Positions 231-16,988 of a stretch of DNA of 16,988 nucleotides are shown here, piece after piece. Source of the DNA: Treponema sp. (GTDB lineage Bacteria > Spirochaetota > Spirochaetia > Treponematales > Treponemataceae). The first letter of the stretch is position 1, and each line of letters starts with the position of its first letter. The stretch spans positions 1-16,988 of the forward strand of contig JAEETM010000074.1 of the NCBI GenBank assembly GCA_016290335.1, given 5' to 3'. The translations under genes were made by a program, and so were the position numbers. The notes beneath the pieces were generated by a model that was given only the letters and a program-made list of their open reading frames with translations, was not told the DNA's origin and did no database searches.

Positions 231-299
231 AAAAATTGAAAAAAAAAAGTAAAAAATTATTAAAAAAAATTTGACATAGTAAGATATAGGGGTTATCCT
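231..299 (+). promoter_or_regulatory. Promoter of the GH53 operon with A-rich upstream element
   Basis: TTGACA at 271-276 and TATCCT at 294-299 are separated by 17 bp, a perfect -35 with a 4/6 -10 at the optimal spacing. The 40 bp upstream of the -35 (231-270) are almost pure A with a few T, which resembles an UP element. The predicted start is about 306, just before the operator centred at 319/320. This placement suits a strong promoter held down by a repressor. Confidence 0.75.
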
Positions 300-309
300 T
301 TAGGTATAT

Positions 310-329
310 AAAGTGACACGTGTTGATAA
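310..329 (+). promoter_or_regulatory. LacI-type operator O1
   Basis: The palindromic core ACACGTGT lies at 316-323, followed by a complete right half-site TTGATAA. By hand count it matches 15 of 20 positions of the palindrome TTATCAACACGTGTTGATAA, shared with three other sites in the window; the mismatches are all in the left half. The central CG step is typical of LacI-family operators. The site sits about 20 bp downstream of the -10, where a bound repressor would block initiation or early elongation. The right half also forms a short inverted repeat (CGTGTT-GAT-AACACG, 319-333). The likely ligand is the LacI-family protein encoded at 9096. Confidence 0.72.
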
Positions 330-366
330 CACGAGGTTAAAAGTATATTAATAAAAGGGGAATCCT

Positions 367-3300
367 ATGAAAAGAAAATGCCTGATTCTTTTATGCTTTG
401 GAATCTTGGGTTACTGCTGTTCTTTGTTTGCTATGACACATCCGGCTGAGGAAGGAGTTAAACAGAATATCATTATTGAGCCGGTAGAAGGACTTTCTGA
501 GGATTTTATGCGGGGAGTTGATATAAGCTCCTTGTATGAAATTGAGGCAAATGGCGGTAAGTATTATAACGCAAATCGAGAAGAAGAAGATTTATTCAAA
601 ATCCTTGCTGAGAATGGTGTAAACTGGGTACGTTTGCGAGTTTGGAATAATCCAAAAGATGGTGGCGGAAGCAACAATGTAGATATTGATGTAAAGCTTG
701 CAGTTCGGGCAAAGCAGGCTGGACTTAAGCTTCTTGTAGACTTTCATTATTCAGATACCTGGGCCGATCCTGGAAAACAGCCAATGCCGGCTGAATGGAA
801 AAAGCTTAATGAAAAACAACTGAATGCAGCGGTTGAAAAATATACAAAGGAATCTATTGAAGCGTTTATAAAAGCCGGAGCTCGCCCGGATGCTGTTCAG
901 ATTGGAAACGAGCTTAATAACGGTTTTATGTGGCCGCTTGGAAAAATATGGGGAAATGATGGTGAAAAGGTTGGCGGCTTTAAGGGCTTTACAGAGTTAC
1001 TAAAATCTGCAGCTGCAGGTGTTCGTGCTGCTCAGGGAAATGGACAATTAATTAAAATCATCATTCATATTGCGGATGGTGGAAATAATGACTTATATCG
1101 AGCAGTTCTTGATCCTGTTACTAAAGCAAAGGTAGATTTTGATATTATCGGACTTTCCTTCTATACCTATTGGCACGGCTCTTGTACTGACTTAAAGCGA
1201 AATATGGCAGATCTTGCAAAACGTTATGGAAAAGAGATGGCTGTAATGGAGACAGCTTACGCATTTACAAAAGAAGATGGTGATGAGCAGGGTAATGTGT
1301 TTATGGTTTACTCTGGAGATAATGATGGTTATTTACCGTCGGTTCAGGGACAGGCTACTGCAGTTCGTGATGTTATTGAGACTGTAGCTAATATAAAAGG
1401 CGGTATTGGAGTTTTTTATTGGGAACCTGCCTGGATTCCGGTAGAAGGAGCTGGTCTTTCAAAAACAGAGGGTGATACTTGGGAAAACCAGTGTATGTTC
1501 GATTTTGAAGGACGGGCTCTTCCTTCTCTTGCAGTATGGAATCTTGTATACGGTAATGATAGAGGTGCTGTTTCTAATGTTTGGGGCGGTTCGGCAAAAA
1601 ATGGTAGTGGTTTTATTCCTTATGATATGGCTGATCCGCTGAAGATTACTACAATGCCTGGAGTTGATCCTGTTCTTCCAAAAATGGTGAAGGTGGTTTA
1701 TACAAACGATAAGGAAAACAATGTAATTGTTTCGTGGGAAAAGCACGATTGGGTAGCAGAAACAACACCACGTATTATGGAGATTTCGGCTGGACTTTCA
1801 GGTTCAAGCTATAGGGTTAAGGCAGAGATTGAAATCAGCTCTCGTATTAATCTTGTTGAAGATAATTCCTGGGAAAGCGGAAAACTTGGAAAATGGAAGC
1901 TCAACGGTTCAGATACTGCTTGTTATGTAGAGAATAACAAAAGCAATTCTCATACAGGAAAATGGACTTATAAGTATTGGCTCGGACAAGGCTTTAAATC
2001 TGTTCTTACACAGGATTTTAAAGGAATTGAAAACGGAACTTACGTTATGACTGTCTGGGCTATGGGCGGTGGCGGAGAAAATGATATAAGATTTTTTGCT
2101 GCTAATTATGACGGTAATAAAACACAGCTTTCTACACAAATTGTAAATACGGGCTGGCTTAATTGGAAGCAGTACAAGGTTGAGGCGCCTGTTACAAATC
2201 ATCAGATTACAGTTGGTATTTATCTTGATACAAATGCAGGAAACTGGGGTAATTTTGATGACGTTGAGCTTTATCTTAAGGAAAACACTTCTGTTTCAGA
2301 AACAAGTCAGGAATGGGATGACAGCTTTACAGTAAATCTAAATACTGATTTTACAGATGAAATCTCTGATGAACCTGCAGCAGACGGTGCTAGTGGAAAA
2401 ATGGCAAATGTTCTTCAGGGAATTTGGATTGAGGCAACAAGCAAGACGAATGCTATTATTCGCGATATTGCTACCGGAGAAAAAGCTGGTTGGGAGCTTG
2501 ATAATCAGCATCTTCTCTCAAATGCTAACTGGTGGTTCTGGGGTGATATAAATAAAACCTTCCATCTTGATGCCGAAATTGGTGTATGGAAGTTTGACAG
2601 GACTCTTTATCAGGCTGACAGCTTTGCTGCAAATGTTCCTGTCGTAACCTGGGGAGATGGACTTCAGGGCTTGGGTACAATGTTTTTCAGTCCTATTTAT
2701 AACTGGAATGATAATGGACTGGGTGCTTTTAATAAGCTTGGTTTTACAATCAGTTCTCCTTTTGTAAATGTAAAGGTTGGATACGGTGGGCTAAAGGAAA
2801 ACGGAATGTCCGAGTTCACAGGAATCTATAATGTAATAGACCGATGGCTTGATGTTGGAAAAGGCTTTACAGAGATTTCAAACGGGAAGAAGTTACAGCG
2901 CTTTGGAGATGTAAAAGTAAATGCTATGGCAGCTTTATCTATGATGCGCGGAACTTACGGTATGTACGATATTCTTGATGTTAAGTTTGGTGAGGATTAT
3001 CGTACTGTAGCAACCTTTGGAAGTAAAACTACAGCAGAGCAGCTTTTCTATTATAATTCAGATAATTTGAATGCAGCTTCACTTTATTTTATAGCAAATC
3101 CTGGTAGCATAAAGCTTGAAGCTCACGGACTTACAACGTTCGGAACTGGTCTTGATTACGGTGCTTCTACCTTAGCAGGAGCAGTCAGAGCAGGTTATTC
3201 TAATGATGTGCTTGAGGTTTCCGTAAAAGGAAGCTGGGCTGGGAAAAACGTTAATTCAGTCTGGGGCTCTGATGGTCAGATTTATGATGATATAAATGCA

Positions 3301-4017
3301 GATACTGTTACTGGTAAGGTTGATGTAAATTGGCAGCCAAAAGAGTTTATAGCAATAGGTCTTGATGAAACTATAACCTTCAATAATGTTGAAGCGCTTT
3401 CTGACGGATTAATGAACATTCGTACTCAACCAATTTTGGATTTTTATCTTGAACCGCTAGCAGGCTTTGACTTTACTGCTTCGACGTATGCAGTTATGAA
3501 CTTTGACCGACTTGCAACTGCTACTTCTGTTAACCGCGATACGATTTTCAGCTTTAAGGAAGCTGGAATTGAGCTTACTGCAAAGGATATTTCTTATCGT
3601 CTTAAAAAGCTTGTTTTTGATTACGCACTCAGCTTTGATTTCCAGGATTGGAAAGACGGCAGCACTTATGATATAGGAGTGACTTATAATTCCTTTATGC
3701 TTTCTGCTGACGTGTCTGATAATCTGAATCTGCATGCAGGTACAGTTTTAAGAAATAAGAGTGAAAAGGATGCAGCCTTTGTTCCGCTCGGCTTTGCGCT
3801 TGGAGCTAAGTTTGCTTCAGTTCCTCTACCGGGAAGTCCTACCTTGTGGATGCATTTCTGCTATGGAATGAATCCTTATTCAGAAAATAATTACAGCCTT
3901 TATCGTGCCGATAACTGGATGAATAAGGCTCCTCACCGCACTTATTTATTGAACAGTCTGTATGAGGATTACACGACAAGCCAGATTGGAATAGGCTTTA
4001 TTTGGAATATTCAGTAG
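367..4017 (+). CDS. GH53 endo-beta-1,4-galactanase fused to CBM61-like module and C-terminal outer-membrane beta-barrel
   Basis: This 1216-residue protein should hydrolyse beta-1,4-galactan outside the cytoplasm. A signal peptide spans residues 1-22 (cleavage likely after SLFA). The GH53 barrel covers about 43-397: DFMRGVD, GVNWVRLRVWNNP and DFHYSDTWADPGKQ are family hallmarks, with acid/base E182 in QIGNE and nucleophile E295 in VMET. A Big_4/Ig-like domain (about 430-492) and a CBM61-like module (about 495-637; ENGTY, WAMGGGG, NTGWLNWKQY, NAGNWGNFDDVEL) follow. After an acidic linker (640-685), residues 690-1216 consist of alternating hydrophobic/polar strands rich in aromatic residues and glycine, ending SQIGIGFIWNIQ: an outer-membrane beta-barrel by appearance. 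The catalytic and CBM assignments are firm; the barrel is inferred from pattern, and I recognise no named family for it. Known GH53 enzymes are about 350-900 residues long and secreted. AGGGGAA precedes the ATG. First gene of the operon; 22 bp to the next. Confidence 0.9.
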   Translation: MKRKCLILLCFGILGYCCSLFAMTHPAEEGVKQNIIIEPVEGLSEDFMRGVDISSLYEIEANGGKYYNANREEEDLFKILAENGVNWVRLRVWNNPKDGGGSNNVDIDVKLAVRAKQAGLKLLVDFHYSDTWADPGKQPMPAEWKKLNEKQLNAAVEKYTKESIEAFIKAGARPDAVQIGNELNNGFMWPLGKIWGNDGEKVGGFKGFTELLKSAAAGVRAAQGNGQLIKIIIHIADGGNNDLYRAVLDPVTKAKVDFDIIGLSFYTYWHGSCTDLKRNMADLAKRYGKEMAVMETAYAFTKEDGDEQGNVFMVYSGDNDGYLPSVQGQATAVRDVIETVANIKGGIGVFYWEPAWIPVEGAGLSKTEGDTWENQCMFDFEGRALPSLAVWNLVYGNDRGAVSNVWGGSAKNGSGFIPYDMADPLKITTMPGVDPVLPKMVKVVYTNDKENNVIVSWEKHDWVAETTPRIMEISAGLSGSSYRVKAEIEISSRINLVEDNSWESGKLGKWKLNGSDTACYVENNKSNSHTGKWTYKYWLGQGFKSVLTQDFKGIENGTYVMTVWAMGGGGENDIRFFAANYDGNKTQLSTQIVNTGWLNWKQYKVEAPVTNHQITVGIYLDTNAGNWGNFDDVELYLKENTSVSETSQEWDDSFTVNLNTDFTDEISDEPAADGASGKMANVLQGIWIEATSKTNAIIRDIATGEKAGWELDNQHLLSNANWWFWGDINKTFHLDAEIGVWKFDRTLYQADSFAANVPVVTWGDGLQGLGTMFFSPIYNWNDNGLGAFNKLGFTISSPFVNVKVGYGGLKENGMSEFTGIYNVIDRWLDVGKGFTEISNGKKLQRFGDVKVNAMAALSMMRGTYGMYDILDVKFGEDYRTVATFGSKTTAEQLFYYNSDNLNAASLYFIANPGSIKLEAHGLTTFGTGLDYGASTLAGAVRAGYSNDVLEVSVKGSWAGKNVNSVWGSDGQIYDDINADTVTGKVDVNWQPKEFIAIGLDETITFNNVEALSDGLMNIRTQPILDFYLEPLAGFDFTASTYAVMNFDRLATATSVNRDTIFSFKEAGIELTAKDISYRLKKLVFDYALSFDFQDWKDGSTYDIGVTYNSFMLSADVSDNLNLHAGTVLRNKSEKDAAFVPLGFALGAKFASVPLPGSPTLWMHFCYGMNPYSENNYSLYRADNWMNKAPHRTYLLNSLYEDYTTSQIGIGFIWNIQ

Positions 4018-4039: not shown

Positions 4040-4504
4040 ATGAAAGAAAAAATAAAAAAAGCTTTAACAGTACTAATTCTTATTTCGGCAGCCTTATTAA
4101 TAAGTGCCTGTGCGGATGCGAATGGACTTCATAATCAGACTGCGGCAAAAATAACCTTTGTGTTTAAAAACTTTGGCAGCATAAGCGGCGATTACACAAT
4201 TCCGGGAAACTTCAACAGCTGGGATAATTCTAAAAGCCTGATTAATATGAAGGACGGAAACGGACAATCAGAGCCAATAACAATTTCAAATGTAAATATT
4301 GAGTTTACTCTGATTCAGACAGGAGATTCCGGATGGTTACGGCCCTGGTATAGTGCAGGTGTTCTTGAAGGAAATGGGGTTGACCGTGGAACTGCCGGAA
4401 ATCCTTATCAGAACTTTTATATTGATGCACTTGATTTAAATGCCGGCGAAATCACCCTGATAATTGACGGTTCTGACCTGATTGCAACTCCGGTTGTGCA
4501 GTAG
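4040..4504 (+). CDS. Small lipoprotein with a CBM48/E-set-like sugar-binding motif
   Basis: A 154-residue lipoprotein. Basic N-terminus (MKEKIKK), hydrophobic stretch and lipobox ISAC put the lipidated cysteine at residue 24. The mature part is mostly beta-structure and includes YTIPGNFNSWDNS (about 58-70). This resembles the GxFNxW turn of CBM48/AMPK-type starch-binding or other E-set folds, but the similarity is short and the substrate cannot be read from it. Tryptophans in the W-x-R-P-W cluster near residues 99-103 could be sugar-stacking residues. It lies 22 bp behind the galactanase-barrel gene (AGAGG before the ATG) and 21 bp before the next lipoprotein, so it is surely co-transcribed. 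A role in holding galactan or assisting the enzyme is inferred from context. I do not recognise a named family. Confidence 0.78.
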   Translation: MKEKIKKALTVLILISAALLISACADANGLHNQTAAKITFVFKNFGSISGDYTIPGNFNSWDNSKSLINMKDGNGQSEPITISNVNIEFTLIQTGDSGWLRPWYSAGVLEGNGVDRGTAGNPYQNFYIDALDLNAGEITLIIDGSDLIATPVVQ

Positions 4505-4525: not shown

Positions 4526-6067
4526 ATGATAGAAAGAAAAACAGCAGATGTATATGCAAAAAAAATAGTTGAAATAATTAGCTTAAGTGTCATTCTGCTT
4601 GGATTTACGTTTTTTTGTACAGGTTGTGAGTATCTTCAGGGAACCTTAAGCACAGTTCAGCAGGAAAAGCTATTAGAGGCTACTGGTTCTCCGAGTTATG
4701 ATTATAAGGTTTGGTATTATAATGGAATGAGTGGCGAGAATATGTCTTTGTCAGCAGATTCTTCAACCGATGAATATTTTTCACAGACACTTCGCATTAA
4801 TTTTGGTCAGAAGGTTGCGCTAAAAGCCTACGCTCCTTCCGGTAAAATTATTGTGAATTATACAGATTCTGGTGGAAATAATATTTCAAAAACAATCTCT
4901 AAAATCAGTGGACGCTTGTCTCCTGATTACGAGTCCTACTACCTTGATATGTCTCCGGTTACAAAGCTTATTTCCGGGACTACAAGCTCTGCTACTGTTG
5001 ATATTAAGCTGAGTGGTTTTGTCTGTGCGGCAGGTGAACAGAATGGACGTCCCCTTAAAGCCTTTGAGTATTCAAGTCTTCAGATTCGTCCTTTGTACAG
5101 TGCACTAAGCTTTGATTATTCTACTGTGGGCTTCTCCAAAAGCTCCAGCTTTAAGATTCCTATGAATGGTGCTTTTTCTCTTGCTGGTGGTTCTTATAAG
5201 GTTGTGGGAAAAGATGCTTCTTCAAAGGAGTATACATTTATAGTTTCGGCTGATAAAAATGCAATCTATCTTTCACCAGATTTTGTTACAGAGCCTGCAG
5301 ATCAGACTTCTATGGTGCTTGAGCTTTCAGGTATTCTTGCAGATGGAGCAGGGGAAGCTTATTCTAAAAAAATAAAAGTCAGATTTCTAAAGCACCTTAT
5401 TGTAATAGACGGATTTGAGGATTCAAATTGGGAAGCAGCGAATGTAGTTACTTCTGAAGATGCAAGTGGCGATGCTATGGCTTTGGGTGATGACGGTATT
5501 ATGTATGCAACTTCTGCTGATATTACAAAGCTTTCTGTAGCAAATGATGATGATTATCTTTATCTTGCAATAAAAGGTGGACTTACTTCAAGTTGGGGAG
5601 ACGGTTTTGCCCTGATGATTTCAAAGGATCATTCTTCAAATGTAGTATATACGGAAGGTTCAAAGAGCTTTAAGGTTTCTGACAGTCTTGGATTTGGACG
5701 AGATTCCCTGGCTCATGGAACACCTGATTTATATCTTTATCATAAGCCGCAGAATGAAATTCTTGGTGCCTGGGTAGAAAAAGGTACTTCCCCAGAGCTT
5801 TCTACAGAGGACATTTCTTCTTCGATTGAATGTGCAGTTGATTCTTCAGAAACCTTCATAGAATATGCAATTCCGCTTACTAAGCTTGCATCAGCAGGAA
5901 TTAAAAATGGAGACCAAATCTTCCTTGGAGCTTTCTTCTCTGCTCACTGGGATGCAGGTATATTCGCAGCAGATGTAGTTCCAGATTCGCTAGTTTCTTC
6001 ATCAAACGAAAGCCATAGCTCTGTGGTTTTAAACTTTAAGAATGGACTTGCATACACAGTAAAATAA
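4526..6067 (+). CDS. Lipoprotein with C-terminal CBM9/DOMON-like domain
   Basis: A 513-residue lipoprotein. The signal has an unusually long n-region, then a hydrophobic stretch (17-30) and CTGC, giving lipidation at C34; the -3 cysteine is atypical, but spirochaete lipoboxes are relaxed. AGGAGG lies 8 bp before the ATG and fixes the start. Residues 40-285 are beta-rich, and no family was recognised there. Residues about 290-510 begin LIVIDGFEDSNWEAA and contain the pattern of CBM9/DOMON-like sandwiches: a D-G-x-x-D-x-x-W opening, LSVANDDDYLYLAI, a GFALMIS strand and a late FIEYAIPLTKL strand. Such domains bind saccharide ends or cover secreted glycosidases. It sits between the small lipoprotein and the second GH53 gene, so a galactan or galacto-oligosaccharide-binding surface protein is the best guess. 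No catalytic motif is seen. Confidence 0.8.
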   Translation: MIERKTADVYAKKIVEIISLSVILLGFTFFCTGCEYLQGTLSTVQQEKLLEATGSPSYDYKVWYYNGMSGENMSLSADSSTDEYFSQTLRINFGQKVALKAYAPSGKIIVNYTDSGGNNISKTISKISGRLSPDYESYYLDMSPVTKLISGTTSSATVDIKLSGFVCAAGEQNGRPLKAFEYSSLQIRPLYSALSFDYSTVGFSKSSSFKIPMNGAFSLAGGSYKVVGKDASSKEYTFIVSADKNAIYLSPDFVTEPADQTSMVLELSGILADGAGEAYSKKIKVRFLKHLIVIDGFEDSNWEAANVVTSEDASGDAMALGDDGIMYATSADITKLSVANDDDYLYLAIKGGLTSSWGDGFALMISKDHSSNVVYTEGSKSFKVSDSLGFGRDSLAHGTPDLYLYHKPQNEILGAWVEKGTSPELSTEDISSSIECAVDSSETFIEYAIPLTKLASAGIKNGDQIFLGAFFSAHWDAGIFAADVVPDSLVSSSNESHSSVVLNFKNGLAYTVK

Positions 6068-6082
6068 AGAAGGAGACAAAGA

Positions 6083-7333
6083 ATGAAAAAAAATATTTTT
6101 GTGGGCGGACTTTTTATAATGGCTATGATTTTTACAGCCTGTACTGATATACCATCTTATCCAGCAGATGGCAATAAGGTGCAATCCGGTTCTGTTACTT
6201 GTACAATCGATGGAACTACTGTAGTGATTAATCCAATAGAAGCAGAAATCCCGTCTGATTTTATGCGCGGTTTTGATTCTTCAGCAGACAGAGAAGCGGC
6301 AGTAGCTTATAAAAATACAGCTGCAAATAATTGCAGTATTTACCAGACACTTGCAGGTTTTGGTGTTAATTGGGTGCGCTTGAGAGTCTGGAATAATCCT
6401 CAAAGTGGAAATATTCCAAATGGAAATCCTGGTGGAAAGTCTGATAAAGCTGTTGTAATTGCTCAGTCTGTTGAAGCAAAAAGGGCAGGCTTGAAGGTGC
6501 TGCTTGATTTCCATTACAGCGATTATTGGGCTGACCCTGGAAAACAGGTTATCCCTGCTGATTGGCTTTCCTGCACGACCTCAGATGCAATGGCACAAAA
6601 GCTTTATGATTATACAAAGGAAGTGCTGGAAGCTCTGGAAGAAGCAGGCGCTGCTCCTAATATGATTCAGATTGGAAATGAAATAAGCTCTGGTCTGCTT
6701 AAGCATTCTGCAATTTCCGAAGCTTCTGACAACACTGTTTCTGTTACAGAAGCAGCGTCATCAGTTGCAGGAACATTTAGAAGTGCAAATTATTTCAAAT
6801 ATCTTAATGCTGGAATTACAGCTGCCCGCGAGGTTTGTCCTTCTGCAAAAATAATGCTTCACTTTACTGATGTGAACAGAAATTCGCCGCTTAATTTTTT
6901 GAGCAGCTTTAGTGATTTGGATTACGATATTGTAGGACTCTCCTGGTATTCTGAATGGGCAAGCCATGGTACACTGGAAAATCTAGGCTATCTAATATCA
7001 GGAATAAAGAAAAACTTCAATAAGGAAGTGGCAGTAGTTGAAACTAATGTTCATCACACTACCCAGGAAGGTGTACTTACAGCACAGCATAAAACAAATC
7101 TGACAAGTGCAGACGGAAAGCTTTATTCAGGAATTATTACTGATGCTTCAGGTAATATTGTTGCTTCGGTTCAGAATCAGGTGAATATCATTCGTGCTGT
7201 AATTGAAGTTACTGTAAAAAACGGTGGTTGCGGTGTGTTTGAATGGGGTGGAGAATATCTTGGCGCCTGGAACTCTATGTTTGCTGGTTCAGGTGTTCCT
7301 CTTCCAAGCCTTGCTGTGTTTGGAGTTCAGTGA
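6083..7333 (+). CDS. ganB: GH53 endo-beta-1,4-galactanase, lipoprotein form
   Basis: A 416-residue lipoprotein enzyme. Signal MKKNIFVGGLFIMAMIFTAC gives lipidation at C20. After a short beta-hairpin linker, the GH53 (beta/alpha)8 domain covers about 55-416: SDFMRGFD, GVNWVRLRVWNNP, DFHYSDYWADPGKQ, acid/base E200 in QIGNE, nucleophile E320 in VVET, and a closing GVFEWGGEYLG. Both catalytic glutamates are intact. It is a paralogue of the N-terminal domain of the first gene in the operon, but has no Ig, CBM or barrel parts; it is anchored by lipid instead. It differs in the loop after the acid/base and in the segment after the nucleophile (VHHTTQEG instead of YAFTKEDGD), so chain-length preference may differ. 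AAGGAGA precedes the ATG; the gap to the previous gene is 15 bp. Last gene of the first operon, followed by a hairpin terminator. Activity on beta-1,4-galactan is known for the family. Confidence 0.93.
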   Translation: MKKNIFVGGLFIMAMIFTACTDIPSYPADGNKVQSGSVTCTIDGTTVVINPIEAEIPSDFMRGFDSSADREAAVAYKNTAANNCSIYQTLAGFGVNWVRLRVWNNPQSGNIPNGNPGGKSDKAVVIAQSVEAKRAGLKVLLDFHYSDYWADPGKQVIPADWLSCTTSDAMAQKLYDYTKEVLEALEEAGAAPNMIQIGNEISSGLLKHSAISEASDNTVSVTEAASSVAGTFRSANYFKYLNAGITAAREVCPSAKIMLHFTDVNRNSPLNFLSSFSDLDYDIVGLSWYSEWASHGTLENLGYLISGIKKNFNKEVAVVETNVHHTTQEGVLTAQHKTNLTSADGKLYSGIITDASGNIVASVQNQVNIIRAVIEVTVKNGGCGVFEWGGEYLGAWNSMFAGSGVPLPSLAVFGVQ

Positions 7334-7553: not shown

Positions 7554-8975
7554 ATGAAAAACGTTAAAAAATTAAGTTGGGGATTGCTGGCACTTTGTCT
7601 GGCATTCAGCATGTCTTTTATCGGCTGTAAAAAACCTACAGATGGTGATTCGCAGACACAAAAGGGTGAATCTGATCCAATTACAAATACAGATCCAGCG
7701 GTAAATCCAACCGACGATAAAGATGTTACTTCTATTGTTGATGGTGCCGAGGTAACAATTAAAGCTGGTGAAACAATAAAGGTAAAAGCTGATAATAAAA
7801 TCGATTATGAGGCAGACTTACCAGAAGGTGTAACAGTTGAAAAGAAGGATGGTATTTTTACAATAAAGGTTGCAGAAGATGTAGCTGACGGACAGTTTAA
7901 TCTTATTTTGTTTGCTGATGAAAATGATGACGGAATTAACGTAACTGTTAAAATCACAAATCCTATTTACTACTTAACTATAGCTTTGGATGATGAACTT
8001 GCGGCTAAGGCTGCAGGTGTTAGTGTTGCTTATGGTAATTCGGATACAGTTATTGAAACAATTGATGCAATTTATACTGCAGGTGAAAAAACAGCAATTG
8101 CAAAGCTTAAGAAAGAAAATGCTGACGAATGGGATTGGTTTTCTCCTGTAAAAGTAACAGTAAAAGATTCTAATGGTGAAGAAATAGTAATTGCGCAGTC
8201 TGTTTCATATTTCTGTTATTCTGCTTCCGAAGGTAACGGATATCTGGAAAATCGTACGATAAAGGCTGTTATGGGAGCTACAGAATTAAAATTTACAGTA
8301 ACATTTGAAGGTTTTACTACAAAAGAAATATCTGGAATTGTTTATACTAAGGTTGAAAATGATTTTGATACAACTGGTGAAAATGCAAAATCAGCAGTAG
8401 CAACAGTTGCTGAAGATGGAAAGAGTGCAACATTTGTTGTAGAAAAAGCTTATACAAATGATAGCGGCTGGTTCCAGGTTAAGTTTGCTGATGTAGTTGC
8501 AAAGGATGCTGATGGAAAAGAAGTTACTATCACCAATAAAGACAATGCCTGGTTTGAATATAAAGAAGGAATGAATGGAAAGCTTTCTTATGTTGCTATT
8601 TCTACGGATGATTATAAGGAAACTTTATTGTCTGATGTAGCTTTACCAACTGATACTTCGCCGTCTTCTGTTGTTCTATTAAAATCTGATTTATCTATTC
8701 CTGAAGATGCAAAAGCATTTAAGCTTGTATATACAGCAGGAGAAAATGATATAGTAGGAACTTCAAGTTGGATTTCTATTTACAGTGACACAGATTGGTC
8801 AAATCAAACTAAGCTTGTTAATGCTTGGGTAGATGGATTTGATGCAGATGCAAAGACATTTACAGTTTACATTACAGACAGTGTAGCTGTAACTGCATTT
8901 AAAGCTTGTAATTTCTACATCGCAGCTGATTCAGCAGCTTATACAGGTAAAATTACAATTACTTACGCAAAATAA
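7554..8975 (+). CDS. Lipoprotein with duplicated beta-sandwich unit, putative glycan-binding
   Basis: A 473-residue lipoprotein; the lipobox FIGC gives lipidation at C25, followed by a D/T/K/N-rich linker (26-60). Residues 60-136 look like an Ig-like domain. Residues about 140-237 and 246-349 are two copies of one unit: the aligned features are an ATAxxxxE strand, a W-F pair (WDWFSPVKV versus SGWFQVKFA), a K-D-x-x-G-K/E-E turn, a Y/W-F-x-Y strand and a final GYL/GKL strand. A third beta-rich region (365-473) closes the protein, with TSSWISIYSDTDWSN giving exposed tryptophans. No catalytic motif and no recognised family. It has its own tightly controlled promoter region (two promoter candidates, two operators), a strong AGGAGG site and its own terminator, so it is probably made in large amounts under galactan induction. 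A surface glycan-binding role is inferred from context. Confidence 0.8.
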   Translation: MKNVKKLSWGLLALCLAFSMSFIGCKKPTDGDSQTQKGESDPITNTDPAVNPTDDKDVTSIVDGAEVTIKAGETIKVKADNKIDYEADLPEGVTVEKKDGIFTIKVAEDVADGQFNLILFADENDDGINVTVKITNPIYYLTIALDDELAAKAAGVSVAYGNSDTVIETIDAIYTAGEKTAIAKLKKENADEWDWFSPVKVTVKDSNGEEIVIAQSVSYFCYSASEGNGYLENRTIKAVMGATELKFTVTFEGFTTKEISGIVYTKVENDFDTTGENAKSAVATVAEDGKSATFVVEKAYTNDSGWFQVKFADVVAKDADGKEVTITNKDNAWFEYKEGMNGKLSYVAISTDDYKETLLSDVALPTDTSPSSVVLLKSDLSIPEDAKAFKLVYTAGENDIVGTSSWISIYSDTDWSNQTKLVNAWVDGFDADAKTFTVYITDSVAVTAFKACNFYIAADSAAYTGKITITYAK

Positions 8976-9095: not shown

Positions 9096-10142
9096 ATGCG
9101 TAGATCAGATGAAAGTAAAAAAACAGTTACTCAGAATGACGTTGCAAAAGCTGCAGGTGTTACCCGTAGTATGGTTAGTTATGTCATTAGTGGAACTTCA
9201 GGACGTTCAGTTGCTCCTGAGACAAGGGAAAGAATTTTAAAAGTAATTAAGGAGATGGGGTATAGGCCGAATAAAGCCGCTCAGGCTTTGCAGCTTGGTG
9301 ATGTAGCCTTTGCTTCAAAAAATATTGGAGTAGTGCTTCCTGATTCCTCTATTTTTTTACGACCCTTTTATACGGAGATTCTGGCAGGAATCTTTACTGC
9401 GGCTCACGAGCATAATTACAATGTAAAATTTATCAGATTTTTTGGTGAGCTTAAGGATCCTGTTTTATTTAATGAGCTTATTCATCCTGAATCTATAGGC
9501 TCTCTGGTTTTGGTTGCTGTAAATCAGGCAATAAAAACTGAAGAGGATGAGAAAATCATTGAAAAGATCCGGGAGTTAATAAAAAAGACTGTATGTGTGG
9601 AATGGAAAACTGATGGTCTGACAAGTGTTCTTTTTGACAGACAGGAAGCAGCTAAAAAAGCTACGGAATATCTTGTAAAAAAGGACTATTCAGATATTGC
9701 ATATATCGGCGAGCATGACGAACGTGTTTTTGGTGTTCAGCAGGCTTTGCTTCAGCATAATTTAAATGCGGTTCAGCAGAACTTTTATCTTGCAGAAGGC
9801 TTTGACATGCAGACCGGCTATGATGGTATGAAGTCTATTTCGGAGAAAAGTGGAGGAACCTTTCCTCGTGCTCTTGTTTGCGGTTCAGATGAGGTTGCAG
9901 TTGGCGCAATGTGTTATTTGAATGAAAACGGAATCAGGATTCCAGAGGATGTAGCAATTATCAGTATAGATAATATTGAGCTTGCCGCATACGCAAATCC
10001 ACCTCTGACGACAATAAATGTTCAGAAAAAAGCGATGGGATATCGTGCGGTGGAAATGATTATAAATGATTCTGTAGGGCAGGGAGATAAGGCAGTTTGC
10101 ATCACTCTTCCTACAGAAATAATAGAAAGAAAATCGTGCTGA
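9096..10142 (+). CDS. LacI-family transcriptional regulator of the galactan locus
   Basis: A 348-residue protein with the full LacI-family layout. An N-terminal helix-turn-helix (about 10-35: TQNDVAKAAGVTRSMVSYVI) is followed by the hinge helix region (GYRPNKAAQALQLG, 54-68) that normally inserts into the central CG of the operator. A periplasmic-binding-protein-like sugar sensor domain covers about 74-348 (IGVVLPDSS, YIGEHDERVFG, ALVCGSDEVAVGA, ISIDNIELAAYANPPLTT). AGAGG precedes the ATG. It is the only regulator in the window, and palindromes with the expected LacI-type central CG flank three promoter regions including its own, so it is very probably the local repressor. The inducer, perhaps galactose or galactobiose, is inferred only. 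In Bacillus the comparable galactan locus is controlled by GanR, also a LacI-type repressor. Confidence 0.93.
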   Translation: MRRSDESKKTVTQNDVAKAAGVTRSMVSYVISGTSGRSVAPETRERILKVIKEMGYRPNKAAQALQLGDVAFASKNIGVVLPDSSIFLRPFYTEILAGIFTAAHEHNYNVKFIRFFGELKDPVLFNELIHPESIGSLVLVAVNQAIKTEEDEKIIEKIRELIKKTVCVEWKTDGLTSVLFDRQEAAKKATEYLVKKDYSDIAYIGEHDERVFGVQQALLQHNLNAVQQNFYLAEGFDMQTGYDGMKSISEKSGGTFPRALVCGSDEVAVGAMCYLNENGIRIPEDVAIISIDNIELAAYANPPLTTINVQKKAMGYRAVEMIINDSVGQGDKAVCITLPTEIIERKSC

Positions 10143-10181
10143 TTTTTTGAATAAAAAATGTGTTCATACAGGAGGATTATG

Positions 10182-11390
10182 ATGAACAAAAGAATTATTG
10201 CGGCTGTAGTTGCCGGTGCAGTTTTGTTGTCTTGTACCTATGCAAAAAAGGCTAAGACTCCAAAAAAGTCTAAAAAAGGAAAGGTTGTACTTACAGTTTG
10301 GGAATCAACAAATGGACCTGATGAGTTTATCAAAAAGGCTGGTGAAGCTTACACAAAAACTCATCCGAATGTAACAATCAAATATGTAAATGTTGAGCTT
10401 GGCGATGCAGTCACACAGATTGCCTTGGACGGACCTGCTGGAGTTGGTCCAGATTTGTTTGCTGCTCCTCATGACAGACTTGGTTCTTTGGTAAGCGGTG
10501 GGCACGTTCTTCCTACAGCAAATGCAGATTCAGTTCGTTCTGTAATCCTTGGTTCTTGTGCAAGTGCCCTCACTTACGAAGGAAAAATGTACGGTTATCC
10601 TGTATCAGCTGAAACCTACGCTCTTTTTTACAATAAAAACTTAATCAATGAAAAAGACGTTCCTACAACTTGGGAAGGCCTTGCTGAATGGTCAAAGAAA
10701 TTCAATGCAAGTAATCCTGGTAAATATGGTTTTGTAATGGATGTCGGAAGCGGTTACTACACAATCGTATTTACAACAGCAGAAGGAAACAGACTTTTTG
10801 GTCCAAGTGGCACAGATACAACAAATACAAACATCAATTCAGCTGCATCAGTAAAGGGAATGAAGTTCTTCCAGAGTATGCGTTCAGCACTTGATGTACC
10901 AGCTGCAGATTTGGATACCTCTACTGCTGATGCCGCCTTCCAGTCTGGAACAGCTGCAATGCATATCACAGGACTTTGGAATGTTGTTCCATTTGAAGAG
11001 GCTGGAATCGATTTTGGTGTAACAACTCTTCCTGCTCTTCCTGGCGACAAAAATCCTTGTGCTTCATTCTCAGGAACACGTGCAATGTTTGTTTCTGCTT
11101 ATTCAGATCATCCAGATGAAGCAAACGATTTTGCAGCATTCCTTCTTACTCCAGAAATGCAGAAGCTCCGTTTTGACTGCACAGGTACAGTTCCTTCAAT
11201 TTCTGTAGAAGTTTCATCTCCATATCTTGAAGGCTTTATGAAGCAACTTCAGTTTGCATTCCCAATGCCATCTATTCCTGAAATGGGTATGTACTGGGAA
11301 GCTATGAATAATGCTTCAAAAAATATCTGGGACGGTGCAGATGTAAAAGCAGAACTTGATGCCTGCAATGCCGCTATTTTAGGTAAATAA
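10182..11390 (+). CDS. ABC transporter sugar-binding lipoprotein (MalE/GanS type)
   Basis: A 402-residue extracellular solute-binding protein, family 1. From the chosen ATG the signal is MNKRIIAAVVAGAVLLSC, with lipidation at C18, followed by a very lysine-rich linker (KKAKTPKKSKKGK). The mature domain has VVLTVWEST, ALTYEGKMYGYPVSAETYALFYNK (typical hinge strand region, in two parts), a C-terminal SGTRAMFVSAYSDHP and WEAMNNASKNIWDG, all as in maltose/oligosaccharide-binding proteins. The start at 10182 is preferred because AGGAGG ends 6 bp before it; in-frame ATGs at 10179 and 10158 are too close to, or upstream of, that site. The gene follows the regulator by 39 bp and precedes two permease genes. 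By context the ligand is galacto-oligosaccharide from galactan, as for GanS. Confidence 0.92.
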   Translation: MNKRIIAAVVAGAVLLSCTYAKKAKTPKKSKKGKVVLTVWESTNGPDEFIKKAGEAYTKTHPNVTIKYVNVELGDAVTQIALDGPAGVGPDLFAAPHDRLGSLVSGGHVLPTANADSVRSVILGSCASALTYEGKMYGYPVSAETYALFYNKNLINEKDVPTTWEGLAEWSKKFNASNPGKYGFVMDVGSGYYTIVFTTAEGNRLFGPSGTDTTNTNINSAASVKGMKFFQSMRSALDVPAADLDTSTADAAFQSGTAAMHITGLWNVVPFEEAGIDFGVTTLPALPGDKNPCASFSGTRAMFVSAYSDHPDEANDFAAFLLTPEMQKLRFDCTGTVPSISVEVSSPYLEGFMKQLQFAFPMPSIPEMGMYWEAMNNASKNIWDGADVKAELDACNAAILGK

Positions 11391-11418: not shown

Positions 11419-11433
11419 CAATTGGAGTTTTTT

Positions 11434-12753
11434 ATGAAAAACCTTCCTTCTGATGGAAGCGCAGAAAAAAAAGTAAAAATTTCGTCAGTTTGTTTTATGG
11501 GGCTGGCACATCTTTTATATTTGCGTGATTTTATAAAAGGTATATTTTTTGCAGTTTGCGAAATTGTTTTTTTAGCCTTTTCTCCTGCAATTGTTAAGAA
11601 AATAATTGATTTAATAACGCTTGGTTCTCCTCATCCAGAGCTACCAATTAAACAGCGCGACAATTCCATTTTTATGCTGATTGATGGAATACTTATTCTT
11701 GCGCTTGTAGCAATTTTTGTAATAGTTTACGTGCTTTCTGTAAAAAGTGCAAAAAAAGAATATAAGGATTACTGCCGTAAGGGGGATTTTGGCAGTCAAA
11801 AAGAACACTTGAATACAACACTTGGTAAATCCTTTCCAATTTTTGGACTGGCTCCAAGTTTTATTATAGTCATAATTTTTGTAGTTGTACCGCTCATCTT
11901 CTCTGTATGTGTGGCATTTACAAATTATTCAGATCCAAGTCATATTCCACCAAACAACACGGTAGACTGGGTAGGCTTTCAGAACTTTGTAGAACTTATG
12001 GGTGGACAAAACACCTGGTCAAAAGGCTTTCTTCGTGTAACTGGCTGGACCTTGATGTGGGCTGTACTTTCAACCTTTACCTGTTATTTCGGTGGCTTTA
12101 TTGTTGCAGTACAACTTCGAGAAATCAACATAAAAATAGCTCCGTTATTCCGTTTTATCTTCATTCTGCCTTATGCAGTTCCATCTGTAGTAACAATGCT
12201 TGTATGGAAGAATCTTTTGAACGGAACCTTCGGAATAATAAATAGAACATTAATTACATTCGGTATAATAAGAAATCCAATCCCTTGGCTTGGTAGTCCG
12301 CACTTGGCTCAGTTTGTTTGTGTGCTTATAAACTTATGGGCAGGCTTCGGTTACTTTATGCTGCTGACAATGGGAACAATGACTGCAATCCCTCAGGATA
12401 TGTATGAGGCTGCAAGAATTGATGGTGCCGGCAGGTTTCAGATTTTGAATAAGATAACACTTCCTCTTGTTCTTTATCAGACAATGCCACTTATTATTAT
12501 GTCGTTTGCACATAATGTTAATAATTTCGGTGCAATTTTCTTCCTGACAGGTGGCGCTCCTACTGTGGCAGATAGTACCACAACGCTTGCAGGAAGCACC
12601 GATATTCTTGTTACCTGGATTTACAAGCTCACAATCACACTTATGAAATATAATTATGCTTCTGTGATTGCAGTAATGATTTTTATTGTTCTTGCTCCGT
12701 TTGCAATTTTCCAATTCAGACAGACAAGAGCTTATAAGGAAGGTGAAGTATGA
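11434..12753 (+). CDS. ganP: ABC transporter sugar permease (MalF/GanP type)
   Basis: A 439-residue integral membrane protein. Two N-terminal hydrophobic segments (about 33-60 and 78-102) precede the core of six, as in the MdxF/GanP branch of MalF proteins. The EAA loop that contacts the ATPase is clear at about 325-345 (EAARIDGAGRFQILNKITLP). The first periplasmic loop carries WVGFQNF and a polar stretch. The start at 11434 is chosen because GGAG lies 6 bp upstream; an in-frame TTG at 11422 overlaps that site and is less likely. The stop codon overlaps the start of the next gene (ATGA), so the two subunits are translationally coupled. Together they should form the heteromeric channel for galacto-oligosaccharides. 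No ATPase gene is present in the window. Confidence 0.93.
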   Translation: MKNLPSDGSAEKKVKISSVCFMGLAHLLYLRDFIKGIFFAVCEIVFLAFSPAIVKKIIDLITLGSPHPELPIKQRDNSIFMLIDGILILALVAIFVIVYVLSVKSAKKEYKDYCRKGDFGSQKEHLNTTLGKSFPIFGLAPSFIIVIIFVVVPLIFSVCVAFTNYSDPSHIPPNNTVDWVGFQNFVELMGGQNTWSKGFLRVTGWTLMWAVLSTFTCYFGGFIVAVQLREINIKIAPLFRFIFILPYAVPSVVTMLVWKNLLNGTFGIINRTLITFGIIRNPIPWLGSPHLAQFVCVLINLWAGFGYFMLLTMGTMTAIPQDMYEAARIDGAGRFQILNKITLPLVLYQTMPLIIMSFAHNVNNFGAIFFLTGGAPTVADSTTTLAGSTDILVTWIYKLTITLMKYNYASVIAVMIFIVLAPFAIFQFRQTRAYKEGEV

Positions 12754-13598
12754 TGGATAAAACTCATGGTGAACATGTTTCTTTAACAGCTGCAGTAATA
12801 TATATAATTTTTACTATAATTTCGTTTTTTGTAATCTATCCGCTCGTTTATGTTGTTAGTGCAGCATTTAGTCCTGGAAACAGTATTGCTTCTCTTAACA
12901 TAATTCCTTTTGCCGATGGTTTCACTGCAAAGCATTTTGTACATTTGTTTAAAAATACAAATTACGGACTCTGGTTTATGAATACGCTTAAGATATCTCT
13001 CGCAACCTCAGTCCTTACAGTAGTAACCTCATCCTTGGGAGCCTATGTTTTTTCACGCTTTCATTTTACCTTTAAGAAATCTATGCTCATGTCACTGCTT
13101 ATTCTGCAGATTTTCCCATCCTTTGTAGGAATGGTTGCAATATATGTTATTTTGTACAGAATTGGCGGACTTGATACTCTCTGGGGACTTGTACTCGTAT
13201 ATACAGCGGGAAATATTCCTTACAACACCTGGATGGTAAAAAATTATATGGATACAATCAGCAAGAATCTGGATGAGGCGGCAAGAATTGATGGCGCAGG
13301 TCATTTCAGGGTATTTACAACAATTACTTTGCCTGTTGCCCGACCTATAATCACTTTTTTAGGAATTACAAGCTTTACTGCTCCTTGGATGGATTATATC
13401 TTCCCAAAGATGGTTCTTCGCTCTGTAGAAAAACAGACACTTGCCCTCGGGTTATTTAGCTTTGTTTCAGATAAAAAGAATGAGTTTACAACTTTTTCGG
13501 CAGGTGCCTTAATTGTAGCAATCCCATTCGTAATTTTCTTTTTGATTACGCAAAAAACTCTGATTACAAGCTTTGGAAGTGCCGGAGTAAAAGAGTAG
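12750..13598 (+). CDS. ganQ: ABC transporter sugar permease (MalG/GanQ type)
   Basis: A 282-residue integral membrane protein, the usual length for MalG-type subunits. There are six hydrophobic segments, starting at about 12-38 (AAVIYIIFTIISFFVIYPLV), and the EAA motif lies at about 176-196 (EAARIDGAGHFRVFTTITLP). The C-terminal tail TLITSFGSAGVKE resembles the TSGxxxGAVKG end of MalG/GanQ proteins. AGGAAGG lies 6 bp before the ATG, which overlaps the TGA of the MalF-type gene; a second ATG directly follows, so the true start could be one codon later. It pairs with the upstream permease and relies on an ATPase from elsewhere. Confidence 0.93.
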   Translation: MMDKTHGEHVSLTAAVIYIIFTIISFFVIYPLVYVVSAAFSPGNSIASLNIIPFADGFTAKHFVHLFKNTNYGLWFMNTLKISLATSVLTVVTSSLGAYVFSRFHFTFKKSMLMSLLILQIFPSFVGMVAIYVILYRIGGLDTLWGLVLVYTAGNIPYNTWMVKNYMDTISKNLDEAARIDGAGHFRVFTTITLPVARPIITFLGITSFTAPWMDYIFPKMVLRSVEKQTLALGLFSFVSDKKNEFTTFSAGALIVAIPFVIFFLITQKTLITSFGSAGVKE

Positions 13599-13621: not shown

Positions 13622-15799
13622 ATGTACAGTTTTGACAATATCAGTTTGAAGCAGGACAACAAGCGTTGGTTCCCTGTGATGGGAGAAATACACTATTCCC
13701 GATATCCGCACGAATACTGGCGCGAAAGCCTTTTGAAAATGAAGGCGGGCGGTGTGGATGTTGCCTCGACTTATGTAATCTGGATTCATCATGAGGAGAT
13801 TGAAGACGAGTATGATTTTTCCGGTGACAGAGATTTAAGGTTGTTTGTTCAAACCTGCAAGGAATGTAAAATCAAGCTGTGGCTCAGAATAGGACCTTGG
13901 GTTCATGCTGAGGTTAGGAACGGCGGTTTCCCAGACTGGCTTTTAAAAAAGGATTTTAAAGTACGAACAAACGATGAACGCTATTTTGCCATTATTGAAA
14001 AATGGTACAAAAAAATATATGAGCAGGTACAAGGGCTTTTTTATTCAGATGCGGAGCCGGATAATCCAATAATCGGGGTTCAGATTGAAAATGAGTTTGG
14101 TCACTGTGGCGGTTTATATGATGAGAGCGGAGAAATCCATATGCAGCGGCTCACTAAAATGGCTAAAGAAATAGGATTTACAGTTCCATTTTATTCTGCA
14201 ACTGGCTGGGGGGGAGCAAGAACCGGCGGGCTTATTCCAGTAATGGGTGGCTACTGTGATGCTCCTTGGGATCCTCGTACAACAGAAATTGAACCAAGCG
14301 GAAACTATATCTTTACTTATGAGCGTAATGACCATAATATCGGCAGCGACTTTGGACTTGGTGAAGGAATTACCTTTGCTCAAGAAAAGTTCCCCTACCT
14401 TACTGCAGAACTGGGTGGCGGACTCCAGATGACAAAGCATCGAAGAACAGTTGCAACGGCCAAGGATATAGGAGCTGTTTCCCTTGTAAAGATAGGAAGC
14501 GGAGTAAAGCTGCTTGGCTATTATATGTATCACGGTGGAACAAACCCAGATGGAAAGCTTACTTCTTTGGAAGAATCAAAAGCAACTGGTTCACTAAATG
14601 ATTTGCCAGAAAAATCCTATGATTTTAATGCACCAGTTCGTGAATACGGGCAGCTTGCACCTGTTTATAAGGAGTTGAAGCTTCTGTTTTATTTTGTTCA
14701 TGATTTTGGTTCAGAGCTTTGCGAATTACCAGCCTTAATTCCAGAAGACAATCCATTGAAACCTGAAAATCTTAGCGATTTACGTTACGCTTTTAGGACG
14801 GATGGAAAAAGAGGTTATGCTTTTATAAATAATTATGTACGGCTAAAAAAAATGCCGGTACATAAAAAAGTAGAGCTTAAGCTTCCTGACGAAAAGACAA
14901 GGCTTCCTCTTATGGATATTAATCCTGATGAATATTTTTTTGTTCCATTTAATATGTGCTTTGGTGGAGTGAAGATTCTTTCTGCCGAATGTTCACCTTT
15001 GTGTATGCTTCCTGATGGAACAGTTGTATTTTATGCAAGAGAGTATTCTGAACGGAAAAATGCTTTTTTCAACTTTGAGAAAGAAGAAGCCATGAAAAAA
15101 AATCCTTCTATAAAATACCTTGTGCTCAGTCGTGAAAATGCCCTAAATGCCTGGAAATTCAAAAATCATCTTATAATAAGCGAAAACCCTGTTATTCCTC
15201 AAACAAAAGCTTCTGCCTTAATAAGTGGACGTGGAGAATGTAGCTTTAGCGTTTATCCAGATTTTAATAAGGCACCCAATGGATTTGAAAAATGTGGAGT
15301 TGAGAATCTGAATCTTGCTGAGGATTTACCTCCTGTTGAGTTTTCAGTTTACAGAAGCACAAAAAAGATAGTTCAGCCTTATTCAAAGGAAATAAGCTTT
15401 AATCTTATACAGACTAGCGAAGATAAGAAATCCTATAAGCTGTCGCTTTCTAAGCTGGTTGACAGTTTTATTACCGAACAAAAACAAGCAGAGCTTAGTG
15501 ATTGTTTTATAAAAATAAATTACCTTGGAGAATCTGCCCGTCTTTATGCATTGCAGAAGGGGAAAAAGGTGCTTATTGCCGATAATTATTTTTCTGGAAC
15601 AGAATACACCTGGGAAATAGGTTTAAAACGCTTTATTAATACCGACATCTCCTTTGAAAATCTGGAGCTTGAGCTTTTTACCCTACATTCCAGTGATAAA
15701 ATCTATTTTGAAAAACCAATTGATTTTACCGAAAAGAACTTATGCAGCCTTATATCTGTAAATACCGAATACGAATGGACTTTACTTCTTAAGGATTAA
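13622..15799 (+). CDS. GH35 beta-galactosidase, cytoplasmic
   Basis: A 725-residue enzyme without signal peptide, so it acts in the cytoplasm on imported oligosaccharides, releasing galactose from non-reducing ends. The GH35 catalytic barrel is at the N-terminus (about 15-345): GEIHYSRYPHEYW, a DVASTYVIWIHHE stretch, DFSGDRDLRLFV, LRIGPWVHAEVRNGGFPDW, acid/base E158 in QIENEFG and nucleophile E263 in YLTAELGGG, then YYMYHGGTNPDG. The C-terminal half is beta-rich and less conserved, and contains several cysteines, which suits a cytoplasmic protein. AAGGA lies upstream of the ATG. It follows the permease gene by 23 bp and completes the operon. Galactan loci in Bacillus use a GH42 enzyme at this step, so GH35 is a functional replacement. 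Exact linkage preference (beta-1,4 versus beta-1,3) cannot be read from the sequence. Confidence 0.93.
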   Translation: MYSFDNISLKQDNKRWFPVMGEIHYSRYPHEYWRESLLKMKAGGVDVASTYVIWIHHEEIEDEYDFSGDRDLRLFVQTCKECKIKLWLRIGPWVHAEVRNGGFPDWLLKKDFKVRTNDERYFAIIEKWYKKIYEQVQGLFYSDAEPDNPIIGVQIENEFGHCGGLYDESGEIHMQRLTKMAKEIGFTVPFYSATGWGGARTGGLIPVMGGYCDAPWDPRTTEIEPSGNYIFTYERNDHNIGSDFGLGEGITFAQEKFPYLTAELGGGLQMTKHRRTVATAKDIGAVSLVKIGSGVKLLGYYMYHGGTNPDGKLTSLEESKATGSLNDLPEKSYDFNAPVREYGQLAPVYKELKLLFYFVHDFGSELCELPALIPEDNPLKPENLSDLRYAFRTDGKRGYAFINNYVRLKKMPVHKKVELKLPDEKTRLPLMDINPDEYFFVPFNMCFGGVKILSAECSPLCMLPDGTVVFYAREYSERKNAFFNFEKEEAMKKNPSIKYLVLSRENALNAWKFKNHLIISENPVIPQTKASALISGRGECSFSVYPDFNKAPNGFEKCGVENLNLAEDLPPVEFSVYRSTKKIVQPYSKEISFNLIQTSEDKKSYKLSLSKLVDSFITEQKQAELSDCFIKINYLGESARLYALQKGKKVLIADNYFSGTEYTWEIGLKRFINTDISFENLELELFTLHSSDKIYFEKPIDFTEKNLCSLISVNTEYEWTLLLKD

Positions 15800-15868: not shown

Positions 15869-16988
15869 ATGAAATTATATACACGAAGTCAGTTGATTAT
15901 ATCCTTGTGTGCAGGTGTTGTGCTTACAGCTGGAATTACAGCATTTATTTGTTTGAAAGTTGCAAATGGTAAAAAAGAGGTTACGGGAAAGGAAGTTCAG
16001 GTTTCCGAAAACGAAAAGGCGCAGTCAGCAATATCAGCAGCAGAAGAAAGTGGTAAAAGCTTACAAACTGCACAGGCTGCCCAGACCGAAAATTATAATG
16101 ATAACGAACTTACTCTTGCCGAGCTGGAGCAGAATCCGACGGTAATAATTCCGGTAAGCAGCGGCAACAATTCCTATACACAGGATGAAGTTCAAAATAT
16201 AAACGTTTATTCCGCATGCAACGAGGCGGTTGTAAATATTAACACAAAGGTTATGGCCTACGACTGGTTCCTTGATCCTTACGTTCAGGATGGCGGTAGT
16301 GGTAGTGGTTCTATAATTGACAAGCGTGGTTATATTCTTACAAATGTTCACGTAATTCAAGGTGCTACAAAAATCTATGTTTCTTTGTTTGATGGAACTC
16401 AGTATGAAGCAGAAGTTGTCGGTCAGGACTTAGACAGCGATTTAGCTGTTATAAAGTTTACTCCGCCGGAAAACCTTGTCCTAAAAACAATTTCCTTTGG
16501 AGATTCAAGCAATCTTAAGGTTGGGCAAAAGGTAATTGCAATTGGAAATCCGTTTGGTATGGAAAGAACTATGACTACCGGTATTGTTTCGGGGCTTGGT
16601 CGTCCTATCCAAAACTCAAACAAGCGAATTATTCGAAATATGATTCAAACAGATACAGCAATTAATCCTGGAAACTCTGGTGGTCCTTTGCTGGATACAA
16701 ATGGCAGAATGATTGGTATTAATACAATGATTATGTCCAATTCCGGAAGCTCTGCGGGTGTTGGTTTTGCAGTACCTTCTGAAACAGCTGTACGTGTAGT
16801 TTCTGATTTAATTAAATACGGAAAAGTTCAGCGTGGTAGTATTGATGCCGTAATCATCCAGCTGAACAAAAGAATTGCACAGTATGTAGGACTTGATATT
16901 TCAAGCGGTATTCTTGTATCAAAGGTAGAAAAGGGCGGAAATGCAGAAAAAGCCGGTCTTAAAGGCGGAACGGAAGCTGTTTATTACG
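15869..16988 (+). CDS. degP: HtrA/DegP-type serine protease, 3' end missing
   Basis: An open frame of 373 codons running off the right edge. An N-terminal hydrophobic anchor (about 8-30, with cysteines but no good lipobox) and a polar linker (31-105) precede a trypsin-like domain with the complete triad: H161 in ILTNVHV, D191 in DSDLAVIKF, S270 in INPGNSGGPL. GSGSIID, GNPFGMERTMTTGIVSG and SAGVGFAVPS are typical of HtrA. A PDZ domain begins at about residue 320 (GLDISSGILVSKVEKGGNAEKAGL) and is cut by the window end. It should degrade or refold misfolded envelope proteins in the periplasm. The ATG at 15869 has no ribosome site; in-frame alternatives downstream would remove the membrane anchor, so I keep it. 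It is probably a housekeeping gene and not part of the galactan locus. Confidence 0.92.
   Translation, partial: MKLYTRSQLIISLCAGVVLTAGITAFICLKVANGKKEVTGKEVQVSENEKAQSAISAAEESGKSLQTAQAAQTENYNDNELTLAELEQNPTVIIPVSSGNNSYTQDEVQNINVYSACNEAVVNINTKVMAYDWFLDPYVQDGGSGSGSIIDKRGYILTNVHVIQGATKIYVSLFDGTQYEAEVVGQDLDSDLAVIKFTPPENLVLKTISFGDSSNLKVGQKVIAIGNPFGMERTMTTGIVSGLGRPIQNSNKRIIRNMIQTDTAINPGNSGGPLLDTNGRMIGINTMIMSNSGSSAGVGFAVPSETAVRVVSDLIKYGKVQRGSIDAVIIQLNKRIAQYVGLDISSGILVSKVEKGGNAEKAGLKGGTEAVYY

Follow-up and report, generated by a model that had tools for sequence, protein, structure and literature searches.

A Treponema galactanase fused to the predicted outer-membrane beta-barrel of its operon neighbor

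The first gene of a galactan operon in Treponema sp. (assembly GCA_016290335.1, contig JAEETM010000074.1) encodes a protein of 1,216 amino acids that joins the products of two adjoining genes of the operon, one for a secreted galactanase (GH53-CBM61) and one for a predicted outer-membrane beta-barrel. Its open reading frame runs from an ATG at position 367 to position 4017 on the plus strand of the window, by which we mean the whole stretch of 16,988 nucleotides analyzed here. The barrel belongs to an unnamed spirochaete family whose members mostly stand alone as proteins of about 525 to 650 residues. Taken as a whole, the protein is probably a fusion of operon neighbors in which a periplasmic enzyme sits on a pore for galactan fragments. 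There is nothing unusual about GH53, the carbohydrate-binding module (CBM), the importer, or GH35. We know of no system in which a glycosidase is held at the inner mouth of such a pore, and among the open-licence papers listed, none by title or start of abstract describes the barrel family, the pairing of the barrel with a lipoprotein carrying an LHN motif, or a repeated natural glycosidase fusion, though a description may be in print elsewhere.

The fusion of signal peptide, GH53, Ig-like domain, CBM61-like module, linker, and barrel in one frame is confirmed as real. The original prediction, made from the sequence alone, had named these domains in this order, and they were borne out by Pfam, by alignments to chains of known structure, and by AlphaFold2, with the signal peptide judged by eye. 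The GH53 domain is nearly complete, with residues 48 to 390 covering positions 1 to 339 of the 340 in the PF07745 profile. In the alignment to 1r8l and 2gft, it has Glu182 and Glu295, which we take to be the acid/base and the nucleophile; the column of Glu295 holds Glu in 1r8l and Ala in 2gft. A galactan-hydrolyzing role is predicted from the sequence. The GH53 chain 9fli_A aligns to residues 31 to 637, and the matches to the GH53-CBM61 galactanases (9fli and 2xom, the latter presumably a CBM61 structure) stop at residues 637 to 638, so that these proteins share the catalytic domain and the CBM with the fusion, but the matched chains have no barrel. The first protein search returned 10 full-length GH53-barrel fusions, including the one in the window (the other nine have 42 to 85% barrel identity), together with one fragment; its length limits excluded proteins of 600 amino acids, such as free barrels, and the protein searches scored the 7,989 to 7,993 candidates with the most shared words. 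An accident of assembly is ruled out as the source of the fusion by these other full-length fusions and by the fused loci and their junctions.

A profile search with the barrel alone, which the original prediction had proposed, found 125 proteins, of which the 120 listed are nearly all of 525 to 653 amino acids, without a Pfam domain, and "hypothetical" where named. The barrel thus occurs mostly without a fused GH53, and distant relatives carry a CBM48-type module instead. The idea that the barrel is peculiar to the fusions was rejected, since it is mostly free-standing. Galactan-type barrels have no significant Pfam or NCBIfam match, and the names shown across the family are "hypothetical" or "glycogen-binding." Among 33 species-genome loci, all from Treponema or other spirochaetes and many from rumen assemblies, the barrel is fused in 4 and free-standing in 28 (one cut short), with only the barrel end present in 1. 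Given these relatives, the window most likely comes from a rumen Treponema. A GH53-CBM61 gene lies directly upstream on the same strand, with a gap of -4 to 247 bases, in 23 of the 24 unfused loci that have upstream sequence.

The junctions of these 23 loci show how the two genes correspond to the fusion. The free GH53-CBM61 protein has a signal peptide with no clear lipobox seen by eye and mostly stops within about 10 residues past WGNFDD, for example, with ELYLKDN, while the free barrel opens with a signal peptide, as judged by eye, after which EWDDSF or similar comes in the closest loci. In the window, the junction reads ELYLKEN-TSVSETSQ-EWDDSF, and the signal peptide is absent in between; no remnant of one was seen by eye in the linkers of 13 fused rows, several of them closely related or from one genome. 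The fused linker corresponds to the mature N terminus of the free barrel, which indicates that a stop codon and a signal peptide were lost when the genes joined. The barrel tree, with 122 rows (10 fused) left from 151 (13 fused) after reduction at 95% identity, needs 7 changes between the fused and unfused states, at least 5 of them forced by well-supported branches; the method is a quick one and does not itself give the direction. If fission were the direction, a signal peptide resembling the one in distant free relatives would have had to arise, which makes repeated fusion the simpler reading and the one we prefer. In a search for barrel paralogues at an E value of 1e-3, each of 4 genomes gave a single match. 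Weaker second matches appeared in some genomes (among the top 4 candidates of each), and the ones examined (L070, L071, and L072) are of the CBM48 type, in genomes that also carry a galactan-type barrel.

The barrel fold rests on an AlphaFold2 model of residues 646 to 1216 with a mean predicted local distance difference test score (pLDDT) of 89.8 and a predicted template modeling score of 0.83. The model has 24 strands of at least 6 residues, whose connections alternate between short turns and long loops, with helices inside the long folded loops at model positions 117 to 126 and 131 to 134; the linker is disordered (positions 1 to 33, pLDDT of <50). The 50 Foldseek and 50 VIA-align structural matches listed are all outer-membrane proteins by title (one is a complex of LamB with a phage fiber). 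The C-terminal motif G..[WFY].[hydrophobic] is present in all of 106 barrel rows, a set from which near-duplicates (P0053 to P0058 and P0060 to P0064), the partial P0128, P0130, P0131, and all fusions except the window slice were excluded. The short-turn side, the signal peptide seen by eye, and the C-terminal beta-signal all fit the outer-membrane beta-barrel class that the model predicts, with closure of the barrel suggested by the structure matches. The barrel fold claimed in the original prediction thus stands, and the alternative of a soluble beta-helix or beta-sandwich for residues 690 to 1216 is rejected in view of the model and the outer-membrane matches. Six barrel members gave only chance-level Pfam matches (CDC45, E value of 0.014; DUF7776, E value of 0.21), and the barrel profile gave none against the sequences of solved structures up to an E value of 10. 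Neither the window protein nor these six members matched the Pfam models for autotransporters, ushers, plug/TonB-dependent receptors, or MOSP. The ushers PapC and FimD are the closest in shape, but the identity is 7 to 10%.

With 24 strands and this pattern of short turns and long loops, both ends of the barrel, including its N terminus, would be periplasmic. The Tpr porins of this genus are reported to have a soluble N-terminal part in the periplasm and a surface-exposed, trimeric C-terminal barrel with porin activity (PMC8407342). Strand parity and this precedent would place GH53-CBM61 at the periplasmic mouth of the pore, and by model and analogy the periplasmic side of the barrel is the most likely location of the enzyme. 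The original prediction had instead placed the enzyme on the surface, cutting just above the pore; the parity, the free enzyme with no clear lipobox, and the Tpr precedent (PMC8407342) suggest that this is probably the wrong way around. Like the Tpr/MOSP porins (PMC8407342), the fusion would have a soluble periplasmic N-terminal part ahead of a C-terminal barrel with porin activity; unlike them, it has no Pfam match to MOSP models, and its soluble part consists of a glycosidase and a CBM.

The barrel would then be a galactan-fragment pore of gut Treponema, with its long loops outward and both ends in the periplasm. Galacto-oligosaccharides would probably be made outside by the lipoprotein GH53 of the operon and gathered by the lipoproteins of the adjoining genes, for which either face is possible, and would diffuse through the barrel. 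The tethered CBM61 may hold the incoming oligosaccharides while GH53 shortens them at the inner mouth, and cleavage at the exit may, more speculatively, maintain an inward gradient without TonB. A GanSPQ-like ABC transporter would import the products, and GH35 would complete the breakdown. Pore activity, sidedness, a surface position of the lipoproteins, and this flow of substrate are all inferred. In Escherichia coli, the LamB maltoporin, an 18-strand trimer and a separate protein, lies ahead of MalS and an ABC importer. MalS is reported to be a periplasmic amylase in the maltose pathway (PMC10223318). The Treponema system would resemble this one in having an outer-membrane sugar pore, a periplasmic endo-hydrolase, and an ABC importer behind them, but 24 strands are predicted here, and the enzyme is covalently joined to the barrel.

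Several observations weigh against a periplasmic enzyme on a pore. The support for sidedness is the predicted strand parity together with precedent, and a linker threaded through the pore is possible; endo-acting enzymes that carry a polysaccharide-binding module are also more usual outside the cell. Alternation of hydrophobicity between the inward and outward faces, judged in the window protein, is clear (difference of at least 0.3) in 14 of the 24 strands and weak in 10, and some strands are short (model positions 189 to 194), so that 22 strands are possible, an even count that leaves the sidedness unchanged. One free barrel (L028) has no GH53 neighbor, the sole exception among the 24 loci mentioned above. 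The importer and GH35 genes are found in under half of the loci as available, and three loci with 10 kb on both sides (L009, L022, and L030) have neither a GanS-like gene nor GH35, showing that the importer is not always adjacent. Finally, no experiment on any member of the family was found among the open-licence papers listed.

An unlikely alternative is that GH53-CBM61 passes through its own barrel like an autotransporter passenger and is displayed above the pore. The flexible linker of about 40 residues could thread a pore, CBM61 fits binding of cell wall galactan on the outside, and classical autotransporters likewise have the enzyme at the N terminus and the barrel at the C terminus. However, 24 strands are predicted instead of the 12 of a type Va C-terminal translocator, and no Pfam autotransporter domain is matched. 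In unfused loci, enzyme and barrel are separate proteins that both show a signal peptide by eye, which argues that the enzyme works without being a passenger, and the free barrel retains the same linker with nothing to carry. We consider it about as improbable that the fusion is a pre-protein, cut in the linker after export, that behaves as the unfused pair and has no function of its own. In favor of this reading, the modeled linker is disordered and differs from fusion to fusion, and the tree shows switches between the fused and unfused states. Against it, the two parts have been joined repeatedly and always in one order, which may mean that tethering is beneficial or at least tolerated, and inspection of the 13 junctions by eye revealed no conserved cleavage motif. 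Less probable still is a plugged barrel that merely holds the enzyme at the outer membrane: the folded loops with their helices could close the lumen, and channel activity is a prediction, but in most cases the same operon encodes the barrel as a protein by itself, which anchors nothing covalently, and its relatives in starch-type loci bear other N-terminal modules.

The window carries a plus-strand galactan operon headed by the fused gene (Table 1), and the presence of GanSPQ-like transporter genes and GH35 in it upholds the link to galactan uptake made in the original prediction. Among the 33 loci, many of whose contigs end early, the available sequence contains the small lipoprotein in 29, the larger lipoprotein in 24, the GanS-like gene in 14, and GH35 in 15. 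The small lipoprotein has no firm Pfam assignment (6 of 11 members match HA70_C, with a best E value of 2.1e-5), and the larger one gave only chance-level Pfam matches and nothing in PHROGs. One locus (L002, 13627 to 16590) has two copies of the GH53 gene with a lipoprotein-like start. The promoter call is weak by itself, since 34 such sites occur in the window against a shuffle mean of 44.4, not above the shuffles. The inverted repeat CGTGTTGATAACACG is the only match in the window with at most 2 mismatches and has 0, where 0.25 would be expected at that limit, and it is possible that the LacI-type regulator encoded at 9096 acts on it. Of 27 loci examined, 4 (L005 to L008) have palindromes of the form ATCAACnCGnGTTGAT close to where GH53 starts, and the rest lack them in that form. 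After GH35 follows an HtrA/DegP-like protease gene (by eye; 15869 to 16987) cut by the window end, and the start of a minus-strand gene, whose product by eye resembles a RadC-type protein, seems to leave the left edge (1 to about 180).

Table 1. Features of the galactan operon and of the fused protein encoded by its first gene
Feature	Position	Strand	Basis and remarks
Sigma-70-like promoter, TTGACA-17-TATCCT	271..299	+	Consensus scan
Perfect inverted repeat CGTGTTGATAACACG, candidate LacI-type operator	319..333	+	Between promoter-like site and start codon
Signal peptide	367..432	+	Residues ~1-22; hydrophobic core, then SLFA; by eye, clear lipobox not seen
GH53 endo-beta-1,4-galactanase domain	508..1536	+	Residues 48-390; PF07745, E 1.5e-116; aligned to 7osk, 1r8l, 2gft
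Ig-like domain, Big_4	1633..1767	+	Residues 423-467; E 5.7e-6
CBM61-like module, predicted galactan binding	1840..2280	+	Residues 492-638; 2xom_A, E 1.7e-16
Linker	2281..2406	+	Residues 639-680; ~40 residues; resembles mature N terminus of free barrel (EWDDSF...); compared across 13 fused and 23 unfused junctions
Predicted 24-strand outer-membrane beta-barrel	2407..4014	+	Residues 681-1216; C-terminal beta-signal-like G..W.I; AlphaFold2, structure comparison
Small lipoprotein (ACADANGLHN), directly after barrel	4040..4504	+	Cys24 invariant in 11 rows
Larger putative lipoprotein	4526..6067	+	Cys34 invariant in 12-row alignment; no significant Pfam match
Second GH53, lipoprotein-like start (FTAC)	6083..7333	+	PF07745, E 3.8e-69
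Putative lipoprotein, no confident family	7554..8975	+	Family search
LacI-family regulator	9096..10142	+	Family search
GanS-like galacto-oligosaccharide binding protein	10158..11390	+	NF053763, E 2.6e-61; 207.7 bits, below curated cut-off of 700
MalF/GanP-like permease	11422..12753	+	Family search
MalG/GanQ-like permease	12750..13598	+	Family search
GH35 beta-galactosidase	13622..15799	+	PF01301, E 2e-57; signal peptide not visible

A lipoprotein with the motif C..LH[ND] follows 39 of 52 barrels (29 of the galactan type and 10 of the CBM48 type) in the wide loci, with 2 more barrels at contig ends left out of the count. The LHN or LHD stands shortly past the lipid cysteine in galactan and several starch-type loci, and it is possible that it is a docking motif for the pore. 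The distant relatives (L064 to L074 and L105 to L113) have an N-terminal CBM48-type module on the same kind of barrel and lie mostly near amylase- or pullulanase-like genes; some such spirochaete proteins are named "glycogen-binding domain-containing." The neighborhood count for this type covers the 11 wide loci L064 to L074 (L070 and L071 are on one contig), with seeds from 5 of them and with L075 to L104, which have flanks of about 1.5 kb or less, left out; one further set (A4) took in 57 of 120 listed proteins, with 435 found. Tandem pairs of different CBM48-type barrels with an LHN lipoprotein gene between them occur in L110 (4054 to 8463), L111 (4517 to 9028), and L113 (2228 to 6833). In L073 and L087 (same genome) and in L089, CBM48-barrel genes have a nearby detached N-terminal fragment or in-frame stops, possibly through decay or duplication.

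The original prediction had likened the fusion to a one-protein counterpart of the glycoside hydrolase/SusCD complexes of Bacteroidetes. It is better described as the fused version of a conserved multigene module, in which the barrel and lipoprotein genes are mostly kept together. What it has in common with SusC/SusD is a barrel gene mostly beside a lipoprotein gene in a glycosidase locus. In contrast, the plug/TonB-receptor match is lacking, model positions 1 to 33 are unordered, the partner lipoprotein has about 150 to 200 amino acids in most galactan loci, and the locus has ABC importer genes. A broader and tentative proposal, which we think somewhat less likely to be right than wrong, is that spirochaetes have a TonB-free counterpart of SusC/SusD, made of a 24-strand glycan pore, a small LHN lipoprotein, and a substrate-specific periplasmic carbohydrate domain (CBM48 for starch and GH53-CBM61 for galactan) that would draw chains inward by binding and cutting them as they leave the pore. 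The fused galactanase would then be pore, binder, and cutter in one chain.

In conclusion, the fusion, if read correctly, points to an overlooked sugar uptake system of gut spirochaetes, and the presence of the barrel family in both galactan and starch loci bears on the question of how plant glycans pass the outer membrane of these bacteria. Its repeated natural occurrence speaks for enzyme and pore belonging together, and the fused protein offers a single chain for studies of sidedness, pore activity, and uptake driven by cleavage.
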